Shown here piece after piece: positions 8,187-17,063 of a stretch of DNA of 64,000 bases. Location of the stretch: NCBI RefSeq assembly GCF_026870175.2, contig NZ_CP113977.2, positions 434,001-498,000 on the forward strand, written 5' to 3'. Position numbers and translations under genes: made by a program. The notes under the pieces were generated by a model that ran no database searches, was not told the DNA's origin, and saw only the letters and a program-made list of their open reading frames with translations. Source of the stretch: Flavobacterium aestivum (GTDB taxonomy: Bacteria; Bacteroidota; Bacteroidia; Flavobacteriales; Flavobacteriaceae). Within the stretch, counting starts at the first letter, position 1, and every line of letters starts with the position of its first letter.

Positions 8187-9488
8187 CTACTCTGCTCTAA
8201 AAATATCCCTAAACTGGTAGAGAATACGTTCTAACAATCTCAAATCTTCGGTTACAATATCCGCAGAGCCTTTCATCTCTTGTTGAAAAGGAATTTGCTT
8301 TTTATAAGAAGACTCTAATCCATTTGGCAAAGATACATCTATTAGCAAATTACCTTCTTTATCTGGTACCAAAGAAATATTACTTACTTTACCTCTTAAA
8401 ACACCAAACTCTCTATCCGGGAAATTAAACAAACGAATATTTACTTTTTGTCCCACTTTAATTTTTCCGGAATTCAATGCAGGAGCTTTTACTTTACCAA
8501 GGTATCCTTCTTTTATTGTAGGTATAATTGAAAATACATTGTCTCCAGTTGTTATGGATTGATTCTTTGTCCAAACTTGTAAAAATGTAACCACACCAGA
8601 AACAGATGTTTTTAAAGTATAGGTCAGTTCCCAATCTTTTATTGCTTTTTTCAATTGATAAAAAGCTTGTGTGACACTTCTATCTAAATTTACCGTTTCT
8701 TTAGTCCCATTTATCTGTGAACTTTGGCTTGATTTTGTGTTATCAATCAAAGATGACTTTAATTGAGATATTGAGGACAATAGACTTTTATAATTCTTTT
8801 CGGCTTGTAGATATCCTAATTTTTTATTTTCAAAATCTTGTGCAGAAACAACTCCTTTGTTATATAAGGATTCAAAACGATTGACATCATTTTTTTGAAG
8901 TTGCAATTCGCTTTCATTTATTACTTTTTGTTGCTCTAACAACTTCAAACGCGCTCTTATTTCAATATTCTCAGAACGTTGTGCTTTGTTTTCTATTTGA
9001 TAAGGTTGTAGTTCTGTATTGAGTTCTTCTGCCGAATATTCTTTCTGGAAAATAGCATATGCACTTTCTATATCTCCTAATTGAGCATTTTGAAGTAAAT
9101 GAAAAGGGAATTTTGCAGTTCCGTTTAGATCAAAATGATTCAAACAATTCTTTAAAACAAATACATCTTTATAATTGGCATTATTCTCAATTATGGCAAG
9201 TGTCGTGTTTTCTAAAACTGCTGTTTTATCTTTTACTAAAATAGCTTCGATTCTTCCAGTAGTTTTAGCCACTATTTTTTCTGGTGGAATTGCAGTTGTA
9301 ATAACAATTTCTGTGCTTACTACATCTGGATACTTTAAGAACCAAGACACACAAAAAAGCATTACTATGATTCCAAAAATTAAAACCGTTCCCCAACGAA
9401 TCATCCAGTGCGGAACACGAGTAAGAATATCTTGAACTTCTTCACTACGAAGTTGAAAGTCGGTATTTGAAGCAGGTAATTCAGGCAT
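8187..9488 (-). CDS. HlyD-family membrane fusion protein
   Basis: A 433-residue adaptor. One membrane helix near residues 33-55 (WGTVLIFGIIVMLFCVSWFL) anchors it in the inner membrane; a biotinyl-lipoyl-like strand pair (AKTTGRIEAILVKDKTAVLENTTLA) follows, then a long coiled coil (about 150-260) and a second half-lipoyl/beta-barrel region. Such proteins bridge an inner-membrane ABC exporter to the outer membrane. It lies 110 bases downstream of the C39 ABC transporter on the same strand and must be its partner in exporting the peptides encoded at 11.9-14.8 kb. Confidence 0.9.
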   Translation of the reverse strand: MPELPASNTDFQLRSEEVQDILTRVPHWMIRWGTVLIFGIIVMLFCVSWFLKYPDVVSTEIVITTAIPPEKIVAKTTGRIEAILVKDKTAVLENTTLAIIENNANYKDVFVLKNCLNHFDLNGTAKFPFHLLQNAQLGDIESAYAIFQKEYSAEELNTELQPYQIENKAQRSENIEIRARLKLLEQQKVINESELQLQKNDVNRFESLYNKGVVSAQDFENKKLGYLQAEKNYKSLLSSISQLKSSLIDNTKSSQSSQINGTKETVNLDRSVTQAFYQLKKAIKDWELTYTLKTSVSGVVTFLQVWTKNQSITTGDNVFSIIPTIKEGYLGKVKAPALNSGKIKVGQKVNIRLFNFPDREFGVLRGKVSNISLVPDKEGNLLIDVSLPNGLESSYKKQIPFQQEMKGSADIVTEDLRLLERILYQFRDIFRAE

Positions 9489-9597: not shown

Positions 9598-11856
9598 TTA
9601 GTTCCCTAATTGCAATTGATTTCTAACCAATTCAAAATAGTTCCCTTTTTGTTCTACCAATGCAGAGTGGCTTCCCATCTCGATAATTTTTCCTTTGTCG
9701 AGTACCACAATTTGGTCGGCATTCATCACTGTACTTAATCGGTGTGCAATAACCACCACTGTTTTGTTTTTGAAAAAAATATCCAATTTACCCATAATTA
9801 CTTTTTCATTATTAGCATCTAAAGCTGATGTTGCTTCATCAAAAAATAACATTTCTGGGTTTTTATAAACTGCTCTGGCAATAAGTAATCTCTGCTTTTG
9901 TCCAGTACTCATCCCTACTCCTTCTGTACCTATTTTAGTATTGTATCCTAGCGGTAACCCTAAAATATATTCAGTAATATTAGCCACATCAGCGGCATAG
10001 ACTAATCGTTCTTTATTAATTATACCTACTCCTACCGCTATGTTATTGGCAATAGTATCATTAAATATAAAGCCTTCTTGCATTACAGCACCAATATTGT
10101 CTCTCCAAGATTTTTGTGCTATATTCTTGAGTTGCGTATTCCCTAAATTGATTTCTCCTTTGTCTGGATCATAAAATTTAAGCAACAATTTCATTAAAGT
10201 AGTCTTTCCACTTCCGCTTACACCTACGATAGCGGTAACTTTTCGGGCTGGAATCTTTAGATTCAAATTGTCTAATACCGGAATATCTGACCCCAAATAA
10301 CGATAAGATAAATCCTTTATTATTATATCACTGTCCTTAGGAATATCATGTGTTTGATGTATTTCTTGTTGTGATTCATCTTCTTTTTCGTGAATTTCTG
10401 ACAAACGCGCCAATGATATTTTTGCATCTTGCAATTCACGAACAAACTCGATAAGTTGGGTAATTGGACCATTCAAACTCCCAACAATAGAGCTTATCGC
10501 CATCATCATCCCCAAAGTAATAGATCCATCTATCACTAATTTTGCCGAAAGAAAAATAATAAAGATATTTTTTAATTCATTTATGACAGACGAACCAATC
10601 GTTTGCGTTTGTTCTAATACCAACCCCTTTATAGATACCCTAAACAATCTTGCCTGTACATATTCCCAACCCCATCTTTTTTGTTTTTCGGCGTTATGCA
10701 GTTTAATTTCCTGCATCCCGTTTATAAGTTCCATTACTTTGCTCTGTTCCTGACTTACCTCCGAAAATCGTTTATAATCCAATTCTTTTCGTCTTTTAAG
10801 AAACAAGGTAATCCAACCAAAATAAAGAAGACTTCCCGCAAAAAAAACAAAGAAAATCTTTAGGTTATAATAGGCTAATACTCCTCCCATAATAATCATA
10901 TTGATTACAGAAAACAATACATTTAAGGAAGATGTGGTTAGAATTTTTTCTATACGATGATGATCATTTATACGCTGCAGAATATCTCCTGTCATCCTTA
11001 CATCAAAGAATGAAATGGGTAAATTCATTAATTTTATAAAGAAATCTGAAATTAAGGAAATGTTTATTCTGGTAGAAAGATGTAAAAGTATCCAACTTCG
11101 AATAAGCTCTAAGCCTGTTTTCCCGGCAAAAAGAAACAATTGCGCAAACAGAATTAAATAAATAAAATTAATATTCTGGTTCTGAATCCCTACATCGACA
11201 ATACTTTGTGTCAAAAAAGGAAAAATTAACTGCAATAAACTGCTTGCCAATAAGCCAACTGTTAATTGTATTAAAAATGACCTGTATCTCAATATGTATT
11301 GATACAATAAACCAAATCCTAATCCTTTGTTCTCTTCTTTTTCAAATTCAGATTGAAAAAATTTAGGGGTAGCTTCCAGTAATAATGCTATACCTTCTTG
11401 TGTAGTATCATCGGCATTATTACCTATCCAAAATTTTATAAAATCTGATTCACTATAATCGATTAATCCAAAACCAGGATCTGAAATAAAATATCTCCCT
11501 TTTTTAATATTATATAGGATTACGTAGTGTTCTTTGTTCCAATGCAAAACACAAGGCAAAGGCACTTCATCTAAACTTTTTAAATTGAGTTTTACCCCTA
11601 AAGTTCTGAAGCCTATTTTTTCGGCAGCATCACTTAAAAACAATAAATTACTGCCCTCTCGGGTCGTCTCGCTATAATCTCTTAATTCTTGAATGTTTAT
11701 GGATTTGCCATAATACTTGGCTATAATTTTTAAACAGGTAGGGCCACAATCTTTAGAATCGGCCTGTTTGTAGTTGGGGAATTTCTTCAATTTTAACTTA
11801 TTTTTTTTCGAAAGCAATTTAGTACAAAATATTTTACTTATCAATATTAAAAACAA
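9598..11856 (-). CDS. C39-peptidase ABC exporter for double-glycine peptides
   Basis: A 752-residue three-domain exporter. Residues 28-160 are a C39 cysteine protease: the catalytic Cys37 in KDCGPTCL, His in KEHYVILY and Asp in FISDPGFG are all present. Six membrane helices follow (about 190-460), then an ATPase with Walker A GVSGSGKTTL, signature STGQKQRL and Walker B MLFFDEATSALD. It should cleave precursor leaders after GG and translocate the cores. The listed start is a TTG at 11856; other TTG codons lie downstream (for example 11817), and no ATG occurs before the C39 domain, so the exact start is uncertain. A hairpin separates it from the last precursor gene. Confidence 0.93.
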   Translation of the reverse strand: MFLILISKIFCTKLLSKKNKLKLKKFPNYKQADSKDCGPTCLKIIAKYYGKSINIQELRDYSETTREGSNLLFLSDAAEKIGFRTLGVKLNLKSLDEVPLPCVLHWNKEHYVILYNIKKGRYFISDPGFGLIDYSESDFIKFWIGNNADDTTQEGIALLLEATPKFFQSEFEKEENKGLGFGLLYQYILRYRSFLIQLTVGLLASSLLQLIFPFLTQSIVDVGIQNQNINFIYLILFAQLFLFAGKTGLELIRSWILLHLSTRINISLISDFFIKLMNLPISFFDVRMTGDILQRINDHHRIEKILTTSSLNVLFSVINMIIMGGVLAYYNLKIFFVFFAGSLLYFGWITLFLKRRKELDYKRFSEVSQEQSKVMELINGMQEIKLHNAEKQKRWGWEYVQARLFRVSIKGLVLEQTQTIGSSVINELKNIFIIFLSAKLVIDGSITLGMMMAISSIVGSLNGPITQLIEFVRELQDAKISLARLSEIHEKEDESQQEIHQTHDIPKDSDIIIKDLSYRYLGSDIPVLDNLNLKIPARKVTAIVGVSGSGKTTLMKLLLKFYDPDKGEINLGNTQLKNIAQKSWRDNIGAVMQEGFIFNDTIANNIAVGVGIINKERLVYAADVANITEYILGLPLGYNTKIGTEGVGMSTGQKQRLLIARAVYKNPEMLFFDEATSALDANNEKVIMGKLDIFFKNKTVVVIAHRLSTVMNADQIVVLDKGKIIEMGSHSALVEQKGNYFELVRNQLQLGN

Positions 11857-11908: not shown

Positions 11909-12100
11909 CTATACACAAATATTTTCTTTTACTGCGCATTTACCAGTAGTTGCATTATATGTACCTCCTTCTTCTGCACACTCGGCAGCAATCATTGTCC
12001 AATAAAAAATTTTGATGCATCCAAATCCTCCATTAATTGATTTTTGCTCTTTTTGGGTTAATTTTTGAGCTCCTTCTAAATTCAAAATATTTTTTAACAT
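11909..12100 (-). CDS. Double-glycine leader precursor peptide P1
   Basis: A 63-residue precursor. Residues 1-25 are the shared leader (MLKNILNLEGAQKLT...INGG) recognised by C39 peptidases; the 38-residue core FGCIKIFYWTMIAAECAEEG and onward has four cysteines. It is the gene nearest the exporter and last in the direction of transcription. Predicted fate: leader removal after GG, disulfide formation and export. Function of the core (bacteriocin, signal or other) is unknown. Confidence 0.85.
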   Translation of the reverse strand: MLKNILNLEGAQKLTQKEQKSINGGFGCIKIFYWTMIAAECAEEGGTYNATTGKCAVKENICV

Positions 12101-12126
12101 AATATATTTTTTATAGTTTGGTTAAC

Positions 12127-12162
12127 ATCCCAATCCTTTTAAGATACTTGGGATTTGTATCT
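12127..12162 (-). promoter_or_regulatory. Array element E1 upstream of P1
   Basis: Two overlapping stems: AGATAC / GTATCT (12142-12162) and ATCCCAA / TTGGGAT (12127-12154). The first stem differs from the AGACAC/GTGTCT seen elsewhere by compensating changes on both sides. 27 bases from the P1 start. Confidence 0.6.
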
Positions 12163-12180
12163 TTTTATCCTTTCACCTCA

Positions 12181-12339
12181 TTAAGGTTCTAGACAATACC
12201 AACATGTCCCGCTCACGCAACATTGCCCTTTCGGACATAAATGAGTCGCATCACAAGCCATTCTACCACCATTAATTGATTTTTGCTCACTTTTAGTTAA
12301 TTTTTGAGCACCTTTTAAATTCAAAATGTTTTTTAACAT
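12181..12339 (-). CDS. Double-glycine leader precursor peptide P2
   Basis: A 52-residue precursor; I start it at the ATG at 12337-12339 that begins the shared leader MLKNILNLKGAQ rather than at an upstream in-frame ATG, because the shared leader always starts there. After INGG the core RMACDATHLCPKGQCCVSGT then CWYCLEP holds six cysteines in 27 residues. The ACxxxxxCPKGxxC pattern is shared with P11, and the sequences upstream of P2 and P11 are also nearly identical, so the two are paralogues. Confidence 0.85.
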   Translation of the reverse strand: MLKNILNLKGAQKLTKSEQKSINGGRMACDATHLCPKGQCCVSGTCWYCLEP

Positions 12340-12368
12340 GATTATAGTTTTTATTAATTTAGTTAAAA

Positions 12369-12400
12369 TCTCAATCATTTAAAGACACTTGGGTTTGTCT
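12369..12400 (-). promoter_or_regulatory. Array element E2 upstream of P2
   Basis: Stem AGACA / TGTCT (12383-12400) overlapping an imperfect CCCAA / TTGAG stem. Begins 30 bases from the P2 start and closely resembles E11. Confidence 0.5.
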
Positions 12401-12429
12401 CTATATTTCAAGAATATTTTAGTGTGCCT

Positions 12430-12516
12430 TTAAATTTGAATTAAAATTCTCCTTTCTACAAATACTTTCTCCTCAGAAAAGTTATTCAGGAAATATTTTA
12501 ATTCATTACTATCGTA
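12430..12516 (-). pseudogene. Remnant of a VKOR/thioredoxin 3' end
   Basis: On the minus strand this segment translates as YDSNELKYFLNNFSEEK followed by unrelated residues and a stop, against YSISELKYFLNDFSEEK at the C-terminus of the fusion protein encoded at 14885-16450. There is a stop codon immediately before it and no start, so it is a fragment left by duplication of the junction between the fusion gene and the adjacent peptide gene. Confidence 0.75.
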
Positions 12517-12530
12517 TTATAAGAAGAAAA

Positions 12531-12722
12531 TTATTCTATTGAGAAACAACAACCTCCTCCAGCTAAAGGATATTCTGCAGGGCATGGTCCAAATCCTTTA
12601 TATATAGCCCATCCACCACTAATTGCTTTAGCACAAACTTCAGTTATCCCTCCATTAATACTTTTTTGCTCACTTTTAGTTAATTTTTGAGCACCTTTTA
12701 AATTCAAAATGTTTTTTAACAT
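12531..12722 (-). CDS. Double-glycine leader precursor peptide P3
   Basis: A 63-residue precursor with leader MLKNILNLKGAQKLTKSEQK...INGG identical to that of P2 and a 38-residue core beginning ITEVCAKAISGGWAIYKGFG. The core carries four cysteines (two adjacent near the end, GGCC) and is glycine-rich, resembling pore-forming class II bacteriocin cores in composition, though I see no specific family match. Downstream lies the VKOR/thioredoxin remnant. Confidence 0.85.
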   Translation of the reverse strand: MLKNILNLKGAQKLTKSEQKSINGGITEVCAKAISGGWAIYKGFGPCPAEYPLAGGGCCFSIE

Positions 12723-12747
12723 GTTATCCTATTTAATAGTTTTACTA

Positions 12748-12775
12748 AAATTATTTAAAGTTACTTGGGATTCAT
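12748..12775 (-). promoter_or_regulatory. Degenerate array element E3 upstream of P3
   Basis: Retains the conserved core CCCAAGTAACTTTAAATAATT but neither stem pairs well, so this copy looks decayed. Confidence 0.35.
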
Positions 12776-12793
12776 CTACAGTATTAAACTGTT

Positions 12794-12958
12794 TTAACAA
12801 TAAATACAAATCCAAGTTCTACCTACGCGAAGTGGGCATGAATACAATTCGGTCTCAGGATCATAACAAGTTGGAGGAACATCTCCTCCATGAATATTTT
12901 TTTGCTCGTTTCTTGTTAATTTTTGAGCTCCTTCTAATTTTAAAATGTTTTTTAACAT
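12794..12958 (-). CDS. Double-glycine leader precursor peptide P4
   Basis: A 54-residue precursor starting at the ATG at 12956-12958. The leader MLKNILKLEGAQ...KNIHGG is followed by the core DVPPTCYDPETELYSCPLRV and then GRTWICIYC, with four cysteines. It starts only 16 bases after the P5 stop and is the only gene of the array with no repeat element in front, so P5 and P4 are probably one transcript translated in series. Confidence 0.85.
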   Translation of the reverse strand: MLKNILKLEGAQKLTRNEQKNIHGGDVPPTCYDPETELYSCPLRVGRTWICIYC

Positions 12959-12974
12959 GGTATCGATTTTAAAA

Positions 12975-13178
12975 TTAAAATTCTTCACACACTAACGCTC
13001 TGCAAGTATGATTAATTGAATTATAAGTTGCATTTGGGTATTCCACTCTACACTCTGCTAAAGAATTACCTGGATAATATGCAACGTAACAACCTACTGG
13101 AATACCTGCTTTAATGTTTTTTTGCTCTTTTTTAGTTAATTCCTGAGCTCCTTCTAAGTTTAAAATGCTTTTTAACAT
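12975..13178 (-). CDS. Precursor peptide P5 with AG cleavage site
   Basis: A 67-residue precursor. The leader MLKSILNLEGAQELT...NIKAG ends in Ala-Gly rather than Gly-Gly; C39 peptidases tolerate Ala or Ser at the -2 position. The 42-residue core begins IPVGCYVAYYPGNSLAECRV and has four cysteines. It is the longest core of the array and lies just after an intrinsic terminator, so it may start a separate transcript with P4. Confidence 0.82.
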   Translation of the reverse strand: MLKSILNLEGAQELTKKEQKNIKAGIPVGCYVAYYPGNSLAECRVEYPNATYNSINHTCRALVCEEF

Positions 13179-13205
13179 GATATAATATTTTATGGTTAAG
13201 TTAAT

Positions 13206-13242
13206 ATCCCAAATTATTTAAAGACACTTGGAACATGATGTC
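13206..13242 (-). promoter_or_regulatory. Array element E5 upstream of P5
   Basis: Short stem GACA / TGTC and stem TCCAA / TTGGGA around the conserved GTGTCTTTAAATAATT loop, about 28 bases before the P5 start. Confidence 0.5.
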
Positions 13243-13255
13243 GATTGAATTTCAA

Positions 13256-13299
13256 ATAAAAAAGCTATGAAATAATACTCTTTATTACATAGCTTTTTA
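13256..13299 (-). terminator. Intrinsic terminator splitting the peptide array
   Basis: Stem AAAAAGCTATG / CATAGCTTTTTT with an 18-base AT-rich loop, followed on the minus strand by a T tract. It lies between P6 and P5, so P11-P6 and P5-P1 are probably separate transcription units. It also has a T tract in the other direction. Confidence 0.75.
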
Positions 13300-13314
13300 T
13301 TTTATGAAAAATAA

Positions 13315-13482
13315 TTATGGACACATTATTCCATTCTTAACACATTTATAAGGACCTGAATCCTCACATTGATGTGTTCCGTATGGACAAGTATTGAATC
13401 TAGTTATTCCTCCATTCAATGATTTTTGTTCCTTTTTACTCAATTTTTGAGCTCCTTCTAAGTTTAAAATGTTTTTTAACAT
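13315..13482 (-). CDS. Double-glycine leader precursor peptide P6
   Basis: A 55-residue precursor found by its leader: MLKNILNLEGAQKLSKKEQK then SLNGG. The 30-residue core reads ITRFNTCPYGTHQCEDSGPY then KCVKNGIMCP and has four cysteines. It is the final gene before the terminator at 13256-13299. Too short to stand out by length, but the start, leader and cysteine pattern match the other members. Confidence 0.85.
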   Translation of the reverse strand: MLKNILNLEGAQKLSKKEQKSLNGGITRFNTCPYGTHQCEDSGPYKCVKNGIMCP

Positions 13483-13510
13483 AATATAAATTTTAAAAGT
13501 TTGATTAGTT

Positions 13511-13544
13511 CCTCAATTTTTAAAGACACTTGAGGCTTGTGTCT
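13511..13544 (-). promoter_or_regulatory. Array element E6 upstream of P6
   Basis: The cleanest copy: AGACAC / GTGTCT (13524-13544) and CCTCAA / TTGAGG (13511-13535), which share the central CTCAA bases and therefore cannot form together. 29 bases before the P6 start. Confidence 0.65.
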
Positions 13545-13564
13545 GTGTCTGTAGTTTGTGAGTA

Positions 13565-13723
13565 TTATACCTCGTCAGTACTACAGATCCATCTCCAACG
13601 ACCGTTTTCGAAAATACGAATTGGGTATCCAGTTTCACAATATGGAAGACCTCCTTTAATTACTTTTTGCTCTTTTTCAGTTAACACTTGAGCTCCTTCT
13701 AGGTTTGAAATTTTTTTTAACAT
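13565..13723 (-). CDS. Double-glycine leader precursor peptide P7
   Basis: A 52-residue precursor with a more divergent leader (MLKKISNLEGAQVLTEKEQK then VIKGG) and a 27-residue core LPYCETGYPIRIFENGRWRW then ICSTDEV. It has only two cysteines, enough for one disulfide, and is arginine/tryptophan-rich in the middle. A cationic-amphipathic core of this kind could act on membranes, but this is inference from composition only. Confidence 0.82.
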   Translation of the reverse strand: MLKKISNLEGAQVLTEKEQKVIKGGLPYCETGYPIRIFENGRWRWICSTDEV

Positions 13724-13753
13724 GGTAATAGTTTTTAATTAATTTAGTTAATA

Positions 13754-13788
13754 TCCCAATCATTTTGAAACACTTGGGACTTGTGTTT
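13754..13788 (-). promoter_or_regulatory. Array element E7 upstream of P7
   Basis: Stems AAACAC / GTGTTT (13768-13788) and TCCCAA / TTGGGA (13754-13779). Both differ from E6 by paired changes that keep the stems. Confidence 0.65.
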
Positions 13789-13901
13789 TTTATCTTAAAA
13801 TGAGGAAAAATTGATGTATTATTCCCTAACATTAATTTTGCATTGCTATTAGAAAAGCACTTTTTACTTCTACACTAACAGAAAAAATACAAAACGCTTA
13901 C
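13789..13901. other. Spacer between P8 and P7
   Basis: An AT-rich 113-base spacer upstream of E7 with no open frame, no obvious terminator and no clear TAnnTTTG promoter. It could hide a P7 promoter but I cannot show one. Confidence 0.4.
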
Positions 13902-14081
13902 TTAAAAACAGGCCTGACCAATAAGTCTGCAGATTCCCTCATCACTTCCTGCATAACAACAGTAAGTACCCGAAGAACGAGGACAAACTCCCCCTACACA
14001 AGCTAAACCGCCTTTTATACTTTTTTGTTCATTTTTAGTCAGTTTTTGAGCTCCATCTAATTTTAGAATATTTTTTAACAT
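13902..14081 (-). CDS. Double-glycine leader precursor peptide P8
   Basis: A 59-residue precursor. Leader MLKNILKLDGAQKLTKNEQK then SIKGG; core LACVGGVCPRSSGTYCCYAG followed by SDEGICRLIGQACF, 34 residues with six cysteines including an adjacent pair. With P2 it is the most cysteine-rich core, able to form three disulfides. Found by leader similarity and correct spacing to an upstream repeat element. Confidence 0.84.
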   Translation of the reverse strand: MLKNILKLDGAQKLTKNEQKSIKGGLACVGGVCPRSSGTYCCYAGSDEGICRLIGQACF

Positions 14082-14109
14082 GATTATAGTTTTTGATATT
14101 TACTTAATA

Positions 14110-14143
14110 CCCCAATCTTTGTGTAACACTTAGGGCTTGTGTC
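14110..14143 (-). promoter_or_regulatory. Array element E8 upstream of P8
   Basis: Stems GACAC / GTGTT and CCCTAA / TTGGGG. Each contains one G-U pair that is allowed in the sense transcript but not on the opposite strand. Confidence 0.6.
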
Positions 14144-14170
14144 AGTGACTCAATCAATATTTAAAATTTA

Positions 14171-14332
14171 TTACGGTAACTCTGGACGACATGGGCTAGC
14201 ACAAGCTAAGCTGATGTACTTACATCTATTTGTAGTTGGATCAATACAATCCTTTAAACCTCCGTTTATACTTTTTTGCTCATTTTTAGATAATTTTTGA
14301 GCTCCTTCTAATTTTAAAATGTTTTTTAACAT
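14171..14332 (-). CDS. Double-glycine leader precursor peptide P9
   Basis: A 53-residue precursor. Leader MLKNILKLEGAQKLSKNEQK then SINGG, core LKDCIDPTTNRCKYISLACA then SPCRPELP with four cysteines. Leader sequence is almost identical to that of P10, suggesting a recent duplication, while the cores share no sequence. Confidence 0.84.
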   Translation of the reverse strand: MLKNILKLEGAQKLSKNEQKSINGGLKDCIDPTTNRCKYISLACASPCRPELP

Positions 14333-14361
14333 GGTCATAATTTTTATAGGTTAGTTAATAT

Positions 14362-14390
14362 CTCCTCAATCACTTTAAAGTACTTGAGAA
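14362..14390 (-). promoter_or_regulatory. Array element E9 upstream of P9
   Basis: Keeps stem CTCAA / TTGAG and the central AGTACTTTAAAGTGATT; the outer GACAC/GTGTC stem is lost in this copy. Confidence 0.45.
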
Positions 14391-14428
14391 TTTAGGTTAG
14401 GCTTTTAAAATCTAAATAGTGAAATTAA

Positions 14429-14590
14429 TTACACTTCTTCTGGTTGCGGTTTACATCCTACTTTTGTACAATAGTATCTAGGATTAATACATCCGTCTAT
14501 AGCGCAAATATGAATTCCCCCTGAAATATTTTTTTGCTCGTTTTTACTTAATTTTTGAGCTCCTTCTAATTTTAAAATGTTTTTTAACAT
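14429..14590 (-). CDS. Double-glycine leader precursor peptide P10
   Basis: A 53-residue precursor started at the ATG at 14588-14590. Leader MLKNILKLEGAQKLSKNEQK then NISGG, core IHICAIDGCINPRYYCTKVG then CKPQPEEV with four cysteines. An upstream in-frame ATG would add 13 residues but runs through the repeat element, so the leader start is preferred. Confidence 0.84.
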   Translation of the reverse strand: MLKNILKLEGAQKLSKNEQKNISGGIHICAIDGCINPRYYCTKVGCKPQPEEV

Positions 14591-14618
14591 GATTCTAGTT
14601 TTTGTTGATTTAAAAATT

Positions 14619-14654
14619 CCCTCAATCATTTAAACACATTTGAGGCTTGTGTCT
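14619..14654 (-). promoter_or_regulatory. Array element E10 upstream of P10
   Basis: Long outer stem AGACACA / TGTGTTT (one G-U pair, 14632-14654) and CCTCAA / TTGAGG (14620-14645). It overlaps the P11 stop codon, so terminating ribosomes would influence folding. Confidence 0.6.
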
Positions 14655-14814
14655 AATTTTTAGGATAAACTCTACATATCCCTAATTCATCATTACAGTA
14701 TGAACCTTTAGGACAACTACCATCAGGTCTGCAAGCTAGCCCTCCATTAATGCTCTTTTTCTCGTTTTTACTTAATTTTTGAACTCCTTCTAATTCTAGA
14801 ATGTTTTTTAACAT
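14653..14814 (-). CDS. Double-glycine leader precursor peptide P11
   Basis: A 53-residue precursor, first in the direction of transcription after the VKOR fusion gene. Leader MLKNILELEGVQKLSKNEKK then SINGG, core LACRPDGSCPKGSYCNDELG then ICRVYPKN with four cysteines. It is the paralogue of P2. Started at the ATG at 14812-14814 by alignment with the other leaders. Confidence 0.84.
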   Translation of the reverse strand: MLKNILELEGVQKLSKNEKKSINGGLACRPDGSCPKGSYCNDELGICRVYPKN

Positions 14815-14843
14815 GATTATAATTTTTGTTAGGTTAGTTAATA

Positions 14844-14878
14844 TCCCAATCAATTAAAGACACTTGAGATTTATGTCT
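14844..14878 (-). promoter_or_regulatory. Array element E11 upstream of P11
   Basis: Stems AGACA / TGTCT (14858-14878) and TCTCAA / TTGGGA with one G-U pair (14844-14869). Lies between the stop of the VKOR fusion gene and P11. Confidence 0.6.
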
Positions 14879-14884
14879 ATATTT

Positions 14885-16450
14885 TTAAAGTTCAACTAAG
14901 CTTTCCATTTCTATAGAATCTTTCTCTTCTGAGAAATCATTTAGAAAATATTTCAATTCACTTATACTGTATTCATTTGGAAATTTTTTCCCGTTTACAA
15001 TCTTAACAGGAGTGTAGTTAAACTCATTTTCCAGACACCAATCGTATTGCTGTTGAATCTGCTGATTTACTTTCATCGAGATTGCCGCCACTTTCCATTT
15101 CTTTAACCATGGTTCCAATCCCATTTTATGTATATGCCAGTCCGAAATTGCTTCTCCTATTTTTTCAGGAAATGAATTATTGATTTCTAACAAACTATCG
15201 ACAACTGCTTTATAAGGATTGTCATTGTTCTCTGGATTAATATTAAATAAAACCTTCAAGAATACTTTTTCGGGATACTTACGAACCAAATTGATAGCAT
15301 CTTCAAATGCTTTATGACAATGACCGCAACTTGGGCTAAGAAAAATAGAAAGTCCTACACTCGAATTATTGTTCCCAAACTGTATTCCTTTTAGTTTAGC
15401 AAATCCATCCATCACAGGAACTTCTTTCGATAAAAACTCGAAAACAGAATAGCTTCGTTTAAACTTTTTCAGTTCTTTCACTTCATTTTCAGCTTTAAAC
15501 TTGGTCTCTAAAACTGGCTTTATCATTAACCATAAAGAAGTACAGACAATTACAGAAAATAAATAACTAAAATCATTAATAACTATATCTGTAACCAAAG
15601 GTTGCTCTAGAAAGTAGCCTATCAAACCTTGCAAAACAAGTATAGCGGATACTACCAAACAGAGCATACACCATTTTTTGATTTGAAATTTTTGAAGCCA
15701 AATAGAGTATAAAATGACTGGGAATGAAAATAAACTGAGTAATCCGATTATTTTACTGGAATAAATTGGATTCAATAAAATAGAAACTACATTAATGCTA
15801 AAAAAAAGCAATGGTAAATCTGTAAAACCCATCCATTTATTTATATCACCTTTCTCTGATTTAATAACTGAATCACAGGAAACATTAGCATTAATATTGC
15901 AAAATTTCGAAACTATTTCATTTTTTAACCCAAACTTTTCCTGAACAATAAAAATGCTAACCAAAACACCAACTACAGAAGTAAAAAGTAGTATCGCATT
16001 ACTTAAGCTATAATTATTATAAAAAATGGATAGAAGAATTAAACTTACAGTAGGAATACCGTATGTTATCCATTTAATATTGATTTCACCTTCAGTTATA
16101 ATAACTTGATTAGGCTCTATTGCTACTATTACACCATTCCAACCTTTGCAAAAATCATCTATAGTCACAATAGACTTTACTCCTTTTTCAGTCTCAATTT
16201 GAATAGTCTTATCATTTTTTGTCACTAAAACTAAATCATCATTATAAATAGCAAGAAAAGAAAGAGGTAATTCACCTAATTGTTCTTTTGGAACTTTTAT
16301 CGCTATATTTTCTATAGACAACATATCTAAAGAATCTGTTATAGCAAATACACTTGGATAATTGGGATGAGAAAGAAATAATTCTTCAAACTCTTCTTTT
16401 GCATTTAAATAAAAGTTTAAACTAAGATATTGGTTTACTAATTTTATCAT
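14885..16450 (-). CDS. C39-like / VKOR / thioredoxin fusion, predicted disulfide-forming enzyme
   Basis: A 521-residue membrane protein in three parts. Residues 1-115 resemble a C39 peptidase fold but lack the catalytic Cys and His (SHPNYPSVFAITDSLDML and FLAIYNDDLVLVTK occupy the equivalent places). Residues about 130-320 are a VKOR domain with four or five helices, the CNINANVSCDSV cysteine pair and the quinone-side WCMLC motif. Residues 340-521 are a thioredoxin domain with SPSCGHCH. VKOR-thioredoxin proteins oxidise cysteines using quinones. Placement at the head of an array of cysteine-rich precursors indicates that these are its substrates; the degenerate C39 part may bind their leaders. 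Confidence 0.88.
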   Translation of the reverse strand: MIKLVNQYLSLNFYLNAKEEFEELFLSHPNYPSVFAITDSLDMLSIENIAIKVPKEQLGELPLSFLAIYNDDLVLVTKNDKTIQIETEKGVKSIVTIDDFCKGWNGVIVAIEPNQVIITEGEINIKWITYGIPTVSLILLSIFYNNYSLSNAILLFTSVVGVLVSIFIVQEKFGLKNEIVSKFCNINANVSCDSVIKSEKGDINKWMGFTDLPLLFFSINVVSILLNPIYSSKIIGLLSLFSFPVILYSIWLQKFQIKKWCMLCLVVSAILVLQGLIGYFLEQPLVTDIVINDFSYLFSVIVCTSLWLMIKPVLETKFKAENEVKELKKFKRSYSVFEFLSKEVPVMDGFAKLKGIQFGNNNSSVGLSIFLSPSCGHCHKAFEDAINLVRKYPEKVFLKVLFNINPENNDNPYKAVVDSLLEINNSFPEKIGEAISDWHIHKMGLEPWLKKWKVAAISMKVNQQIQQQYDWCLENEFNYTPVKIVNGKKFPNEYSISELKYFLNDFSEEKDSIEMESLVEL

Positions 16451-16688: not shown

Positions 16689-17063
16689 ATGTTTATGGAA
16701 AAATCAAGATTGATTAAAATTCGAAAAAATCTAGGATTAAGCTGTAAAGAAATAGCAGATTTAATGTGTATGGAGGAGTATTCTTACAGGCGTAGAGAGA
16801 ATGGAAAAACCAAAATAAGCAATCAGGAATGGAAAAAATTAGCTAGTATTTTATCAGTTCCTTTTGAGACCATTTTTGAACCTGAATATATACCAACTGA
16901 TAGTTCAAAAAGCAATACTCCAGAGATAAGTTCCAATCAATATTACAGTATACCTAAAGAAATGATAGACAATCAGCAAGAGTATATCAATATTTTGAAA
17001 ATAGAAATTGATTCTCTAAAGAAAGAAAATCAACTATTAAGAGAAAAATTACCTATAGAATAG
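16689..17063 (+). CDS. XRE-family HTH regulator with C-terminal coiled coil
   Basis: A 124-residue protein. Residues 5-62 are an XRE helix-turn-helix (LIKIRKNLGLSCKEIADLMC, then YSYRRRENGKTKISNQEWKK); residues 95-120 form a Glu/Lys/Leu-rich coiled coil likely used for dimerisation. It is transcribed divergently from the disulfide-enzyme/peptide operon, so it is the natural candidate for its regulator, though this could equally be a solitary gene. An alternative ATG two codons downstream (16695) would remove only two residues. Confidence 0.8.
   Translation: MFMEKSRLIKIRKNLGLSCKEIADLMCMEEYSYRRRENGKTKISNQEWKKLASILSVPFETIFEPEYIPTDSSKSNTPEISSNQYYSIPKEMIDNQQEYINILKIEIDSLKKENQLLREKLPIE

Follow-up and report, generated by a model that had tools for sequence, protein, structure and literature searches.

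The stretch of DNA analysed here, 64,000 nucleotides (nt) of the Flavobacterium aestivum contig NZ_CP113977.2 (positions 434,001 to 498,000; hereafter the window, to which coordinates refer unless a locus is named), carries on its minus strand an array of eleven short, bacteriocin-like peptide genes, most of them preceded by a repeated RNA element that, judged from its sequence, is an H-type pseudoknot. The array (11909..14814) was delimited from open reading frames (ORFs), start sites and an alignment, and consists of P1 (11909-12100), P2 (12181-12339), P3 (12531-12722), P4 (12794-12958), P5 (12975-13178), P6 (13315-13482), P7 (13565-13723), P8 (13902-14081), P9 (14171-14332), P10 (14429-14590) and P11 (14653-14814), which have one common leader, MLKNILxLxGAQKLxxxEQKSINGG, ending in a double glycine (GG). 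Immediately upstream, on the same strand, lies the gene for a 521-amino-acid (aa) VKOR / thioredoxin-like protein (14885..16450; PF07884, E 2.7e-14; PF13462, E 2.9e-5), whose N-terminus has a weak C39-like match in Pfam (PF03412, E 0.0042) under the family cut-off. Downstream of the array, again on the minus strand, are genes for a C39-peptidase ABC transporter predicted to cleave and export the peptides (9598..11856; PF03412, PF00664, PF00005) and an HlyD-family adaptor (8187..9488; PF13437). With a GG-type leader and a C39 ABC transporter in one cluster, the window peptides are, by sequence, members of the C39-exported double-glycine-leader class.

A predicted pseudoknot before the peptide genes

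Read along the RNA, the element consists of the first strand of stem S1 (AGACAC), a loop L1, the first strand of stem S2 (CCCAA-like), the second strand of S1 (GTGTCT), an A-rich loop L3 and the second strand of S2 (TTGGG). S1 has 6 base pairs and S2 has 6-7, L1 is 2-3 nt long, L2 is absent and L3 measures about 8 nt; the whole is about 37 nt. The 5' strand of S2 sits in the loop of S1, and since the strand it pairs with follows S1 on the 3' side, the helices interleave. The original prediction had taken the two stems to be mutually exclusive; because CCCAA lies within the S1 loop and TTGGG 3' of S1, their arrangement matches an H-type pseudoknot, which allows the two to coexist. The short L1 and the L3 of about 8 nt fit the loop-length rule for coaxial stacking in such pseudoknots. 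Nor did a search for competing-stem partners among 163 copies, taking all four strands and including the spacer and the first 40 nt of the ORF, find any that is conserved: the fractions of copies with a 6-of-6 alternative partner were 0.03, 0.09, 0.23 and 0.51, as against 0.02, 0.07, 0.24 and 0.50 when partners were swapped. Across genera the conserved letters are AA in L1, an AAATG-like motif in L3 and AGACA/TGTCT in S1. The AAATG of L3 was also considered as an upstream start codon and rejected, as by eye it is not found in every lineage, its spacing is mostly 24-31 nt and there is no preferred frame.

The covariance model of the family, R1, finds eight copies in the window at E <= 0.0025 (E11, E7, E1, E6, E10, E8, E2 and E5), with the proviso that its alignment, A4, contains E1, E7, E8 and E11. 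Each copy is on the minus strand and is numbered after the gene it precedes. E11 (14836..14879), directly after the VKOR stop codon, scores highest (59.3 bits, E 2e-9) and pairs AGACAT with GTGTCT and TCTCAA with TTGGGA. E10 (14612..14655; 47.1 bits) and E6 (13503..13545; 47.1 bits) have S2 as CCTCAA/TTGAGG, in E6 beneath an S1 of AGACAC/GTGTCT; E8 (14102..14145; 39.2 bits) has CCCTAA/TTGGGG with one U.G pair. TCCCAA/TTGGGA is shared by E7 (13746..13789; 53.5 bits), where S1 is AAACAC/GTGTTT, and E1 (12120..12163; 49.0 bits), where it is AGATAC/GTATCT. E5 (13199..13244; 28.5 bits) and E2 (12361..12403; 31.4 bits, one C.A mismatch in S2) complete the clear copies. E9 (14356..14399; 15.8 bits, E 0.8) is weak, and E3 (12745..12778), read from the sequence and without an R1 match, is degenerate and has lost S2; the R1 search of the window found no element before P4. 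Of the claim that ten of the eleven genes are preceded by a unit, the minus-strand repeat at those ten places therefore stands, with eight copies clear, one weak and one degenerate. The paired substitutions named for E1, E6, E7, E8 and E10 are all present, as is the mismatch by which E2 had been said to go the other way.

No Rfam 15 family reaches its gathering threshold on the element in the window or at nine other loci; the only matches at that level in the window are a tRNA and an S16-Flavobacteria ribosomal protein leader (RF03138; 5378-5409, plus strand; 39.4 bits against a gathering score of 35.7), both elsewhere. Our literature search, which judged papers by title and opening of the abstract and had subscription papers and preprints largely outside its reach, found no published description; 64 structured 5' regions are mentioned for F. 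psychrophilum in one paper (PMC9723704). On this basis the RNA element appears to be undescribed.

Covariation and the strand that acts

Relatives were gathered blind to the RNA by a peptide scan of named genomes, from which the best 80 of 169 matches, at 74 loci, were taken; a search of the genus placed leader genes in 44 of 150 genomes. A set of 390 unique leader-like upstream regions from 96 loci, 371 foreign and 19 from the host genome, was then available for comparison. A fixed-geometry detector scored at least 26 in 132 of the 371 foreign regions (shuffled mean 4.0, maximum 8 in 20 shuffles) and in 11 of the 19 host regions (shuffled mean 0.4). When foreign rows were picked by the L3 motif alone, S1 was fully paired (6/6) in 44 of 119, against a permuted mean of 15.7 and a maximum of 23 in 500, and S2 in 68 of 119, against a mean of 14.1 and a maximum of 22; these 119 rows take in shifted or chance motif matches, which pair poorly and dilute the result.

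Covariation in the larger alignments, which had been put forward as a check, is strong in both stems. Pairs changed on both sides number 13 of 13 in A4, 9 of 12 in A6 and 12 of 12 in A7, and A7 holds 187 cells with both-side changes, compared with 58.5 after shuffling and at most 30 for slid structures. A4 comprises 59 of the 61 rows with a loop of 9 and an L3 of 8 out of 106 canonical rows, two having been removed by eye as chance and the 45 canonical rows of other geometry being left out, whereas A6 (50 rows) and A7 (68 rows) were assembled by hand from diverse 44-nt matches. Since selection of the rows in all three relied on pairing or on an S2-based model, their pairing percentages are biased upward and the slid and shuffled controls weigh more.

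The permutation test on the L3 motif and the counts of wobble pairs are free of this bias, as their rows were not selected on the stem under judgement. In 71 rows chosen on S1 only, S2 contains 37 G-U against 5 A-C cells, and in 75 rows chosen on S2 only, S1 contains 34 against 1, which makes 71 G-U to 6 A-C for both stems together; with the host-genome rows removed the ratios are 37 to 4 for S2 and 32 to 0 for S1. The suggestion that G-U pairs favour the sense RNA is thereby borne out. As G-U so far exceeds A-C, comparison of the copies indicates selection on the sense RNA and not on a DNA operator, for which symmetry free of a wobble strand bias would be expected and is not found in the two stems.

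Further copies in the host genome extend the picture. The peptide search found seven more leader genes at 1428452-1430367 of the same genome (G000:C1) and one at 2718353-2718430. Several of the upstream regions of these genes contain the element with new compensations (AGTCAT/ATGACT with ACCTCAA/TTGAGGT, and also ACTCAA/TTGAGT); some of the upstream regions of these further host genes are imperfect and one is without an element. Over the whole host genome R1 gives 14 matches at E <= 10, and all 13 at E <= 1.6 precede double-glycine-leader peptide genes, the window array accounting for eight, the second array for four and a solo gene for one; the fourteenth (E 6.8) shows no convincing knot by eye. 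A second model, R2, gives 13 matches, 13 of 13 at leader-peptide genes.

Distribution and associated genes

R1 matches occur in 24 of 150 genomes of the genus. In the family they reach 33 of 397 genomes, and of the 237 genera sampled 26 are represented. In broader draws, the order yields 14 genomes out of 296, two of which belong to other families; the phylum yields nine out of 296 and, with R2, the class six out of 295, none of these from outside this family. These draws overlap and contain the host genome, the out-of-family share of the phylum, class and order draws is not stated, and the stricter filters applied whenever more than 40 genomes were searched cost weak matches. Behind the two matches in other families lie, at L246, a gene for a 114-aa protein that has no GG and, at L247, one for a GG peptide.

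Copies elsewhere do precede leader-peptide genes, as the original prediction required, and the link is, on comparison, nearly exclusive. Among 138 matches in 84 loci, 123 precede leader-pattern genes by automatic assignment, and the remaining 15, judged by eye, comprise six GG-ending leader peptides, one leader without GG, two broken leader genes, two other proteins, two without an ORF and two weak matches that are probably false. As most of the 84 loci were fetched for having leader genes, the whole-genome searches are the fairer test of specificity. In the rows checked from the wider searches, 82 in number with a few places entered twice, a leader-type peptide is present in 76, almost always with GG at its leader's end, and the six exceptions are two broken genes, the same 379-aa protein twice, a 647-aa ORF 53 nt off and one weak match. 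Good knots before genes other than those of small GG-leader peptides, named by eye, lie at L238:1406-1449 (379 aa, lipoprotein-like), L227:1470-1513 (647 aa, membrane-protein-like), L171:1724-1767 (200 aa) and L246:939-982 (114 aa, secreted-like), and knots before leader-peptide genes broken by stops or frameshifts at L180, L190, L173 and L048:8838.

The leaders behind the element are strongly divergent. In NCBIfam, two of three window peptides tested match leader_Chryseo (NF047798) below its cut-off and the third has no match; among eight other peptides tested, one passes the cut-off of lant_leader_L1a (NF038153) and is thus a class I lanthipeptide leader. Such leaders are found on genes behind the element, and these two entries describe protein families only.

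The element is common without being universal, and within long arrays it is frequently absent or imperfect. A knot, counted as a clear core or a high detector score, is present at 65 of 92 leader genes that are solo or head an array and at 78 of 182 inner ones; exact R1 cores alone, a count that omits knots found by the detector only, precede 113 of 286. A different pairing recurs ahead of leader genes in some Flavobacterium species (L067, L069, L079, L080, L085, L111, L114, L117 and L124): AAGC-TCA, or a close variant, pairs with TGAGGCTT or a variant of it, usually 25-28 nt before the gene, and may be a divergent pseudoknot.

Many copies also have a dyad directly on their 5' side, for example TATTCTTGGCCAAGAA, TTCTCTCGCGAGGAA, CCTTTCGCGAAGGG and TATAATGGCCATTATA, which we call P0. 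Under a strict even-dyad search 94 of 211 copies have it, with 48 distinct sequences among them; this search requires a perfect even dyad and so forces a self-complementary centre, and a few of the 94 are probably chance. The frequency of the self-complementary centre is therefore not evidence by itself, but by eye exceptions to it are few. P0 contains 85 U.G and 5 G.U pairs, and a search allowing A.C instead returns only 38 instances with 5 such pairs. In the named loci it accompanies 39 of 60 head-of-array or solo copies as against 6 of 57 inner copies. For 89 units with an ORF that were flagged by a looser pattern, the nearest upstream ORF of at least 100 aa shares the strand of the unit in 86 cases, at a median of 61 nt, and by eye is often of VKOR, HlyD or ABC type; 31 flagged units have no same-strand ORF of at least 50 aa ending within 150 nt. 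In the window, E11, directly after the VKOR gene, is without this hairpin. Palindromic, covarying hairpins, most with a self-complementary four-base centre, are seen 5' of the knots at L021:4391-4435 (plus strand), L022:6448-6491 (minus strand) and many foreign loci. Beside the window cluster, a small helix-turn-helix protein gene (16689-17063, plus strand) is a possible local regulator.

A proposed role in translation initiation and its alternatives

The distance between the element and the start codon is nearly fixed: 162 of 211 copies have 26-29 nt between the S2 end and the following ATG, despite widely differing downstream leaders. The spacer is rich in A and nearly free of G, with A at position -11 in 88%, -12 in 90%, -13 in 77% and -3 in 86%. 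A at -12, -13, -3 and -6 raises translation in F. johnsoniae, according to PMC6847099, and ribosomes of this phylum fail to use Shine-Dalgarno sequences, as stated in PMC9976891. The nearly fixed spacing and the A positions of the spacer are our main reason for placing the putative function of the element at translation initiation.

We believe, with a probability of about one half, that the knot acts as an intercistronic translation module that would give each peptide cistron its own ribosome entry. In a polycistronic transcript of VKOR or export genes together with peptide genes, the knot would mark and insulate the initiation site, each peptide cistron would load ribosomes alone, without Shine-Dalgarno pairing and independently of ribosomes finishing the upstream gene, and P0, mostly at the head of arrays, would strengthen the boundary. 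Inner array genes lie a median of 57.5 nt from the previous stop codon without a knot (n = 104) and 103.5 nt with one (n = 78).

Several observations weigh against this interpretation. The difference in gap is partly arithmetic, as knot and spacer themselves occupy room. At spacer position -6, T (47%) exceeds A (29%); the predicted unpaired probability from -20 to +15 averages only 0.58, a value without a control that does not establish an open start region; and either stem alone has a median energy of just about -3.8 kcal/mol. Other genes stand behind a few copies (L227, L171, L175, L238 and L246), and 131 of 274 related leader genes have no clear knot, from which it follows that the element is not essential. 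In addition, the strong conservation of S1, L1 and L3 suggests that the knot may be recognised by something, which insulation alone would not need.

One alternative is a regulated element, in which the knot would be bound by a small molecule, a protein or a component of the ribosome and translation of all precursor cistrons would shift up or down together; we consider it possible and rather less probable than a translation module. Paired and unpaired letters conserved across genera, and the repetition of one element before genes of shared function, would fit such regulation. Yet there is no conserved alternative pairing with the spacer or the start region, the small unpaired part and the missing L2 would leave little room for a pocket between the helices, and no trans factor has been identified, no systematic search having been made. 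The proposal of an RNA switch or processing site holds as far as a structured, covarying RNA before peptide genes is concerned, and no sign of switching was found.

We regard as unlikely a role in RNA processing or stability, whereby upstream cleavage would free 5' ends protected by the knot and yield more peptide than enzyme mRNA. Copies do lie at cistron boundaries, often 16-60 nt past a same-strand gene, many head-of-array copies have the second hairpin directly 5', and the sigma-A promoter motif TAnnTTTG is not enriched within 320 nt upstream (202 units, 31 units being also viewed singly), which speaks against such a promoter just upstream; all of this would fit processing. Protection of a 5' end, however, would not require the narrow spacing to the AUG. 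A DNA operator with interleaved dyads, put forward earlier as a tandem operator, is very improbable, for while the DNA has inverted repeats and the dyad found 5' of copies heading an array is mostly self-complementary at its centre, the wobble bias described above runs counter to it and the stem letters vary from copy to copy within one genome with pairing kept. Equally improbable is a functionless by-product of tandem cassette duplication, which would account for the likeness of neighbouring copies and their decay or loss in long arrays but not for compensatory changes across genera and before unrelated leaders.

Among known RNAs, the riboswitches of the preQ1-I class are likewise H-type pseudoknot leaders, of similar size, with two interleaved helices and an A-rich third loop upstream of a start codon. 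In contrast to these, the element has a longer S2 and no L2, precedes peptide precursors, and ends about 27 nt before the AUG, whereas preQ1-I covers the ribosome-binding site. The rpsO and alpha-operon leaders also place a pseudoknot near a translation start, but in them the knot extends over the ribosome-binding site and is the target of a ribosomal protein, while here the start region is outside the knot. Intercistronic hairpins of bacteriocin operons similarly put an RNA structure between precursor and processing genes; our element differs in preceding the precursor, in being a knot and in its repetition at many precursor cistrons.

Returning to the translation module, the element points to RNA control over the amount of each peptide made, as far as comparative evidence can indicate. 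More tentatively, it may represent a new cis-RNA family for secreted-peptide precursors, in which a knot at the upstream edge of the initiating ribosome, often with a 5' hairpin at an array's head, would recruit or position it without Shine-Dalgarno pairing, so that start sites in polycistronic mRNA would be marked by structure. The finding brings to light an RNA family whose covariation is strong and whose genomic partner is clear, and provides a sequence handle for spotting precursor peptides whose leaders are wholly dissimilar. It also gives experimenters a system in which to examine how RNA structure affects the starting of translation where, as in this phylum, Shine-Dalgarno sequences go unused.

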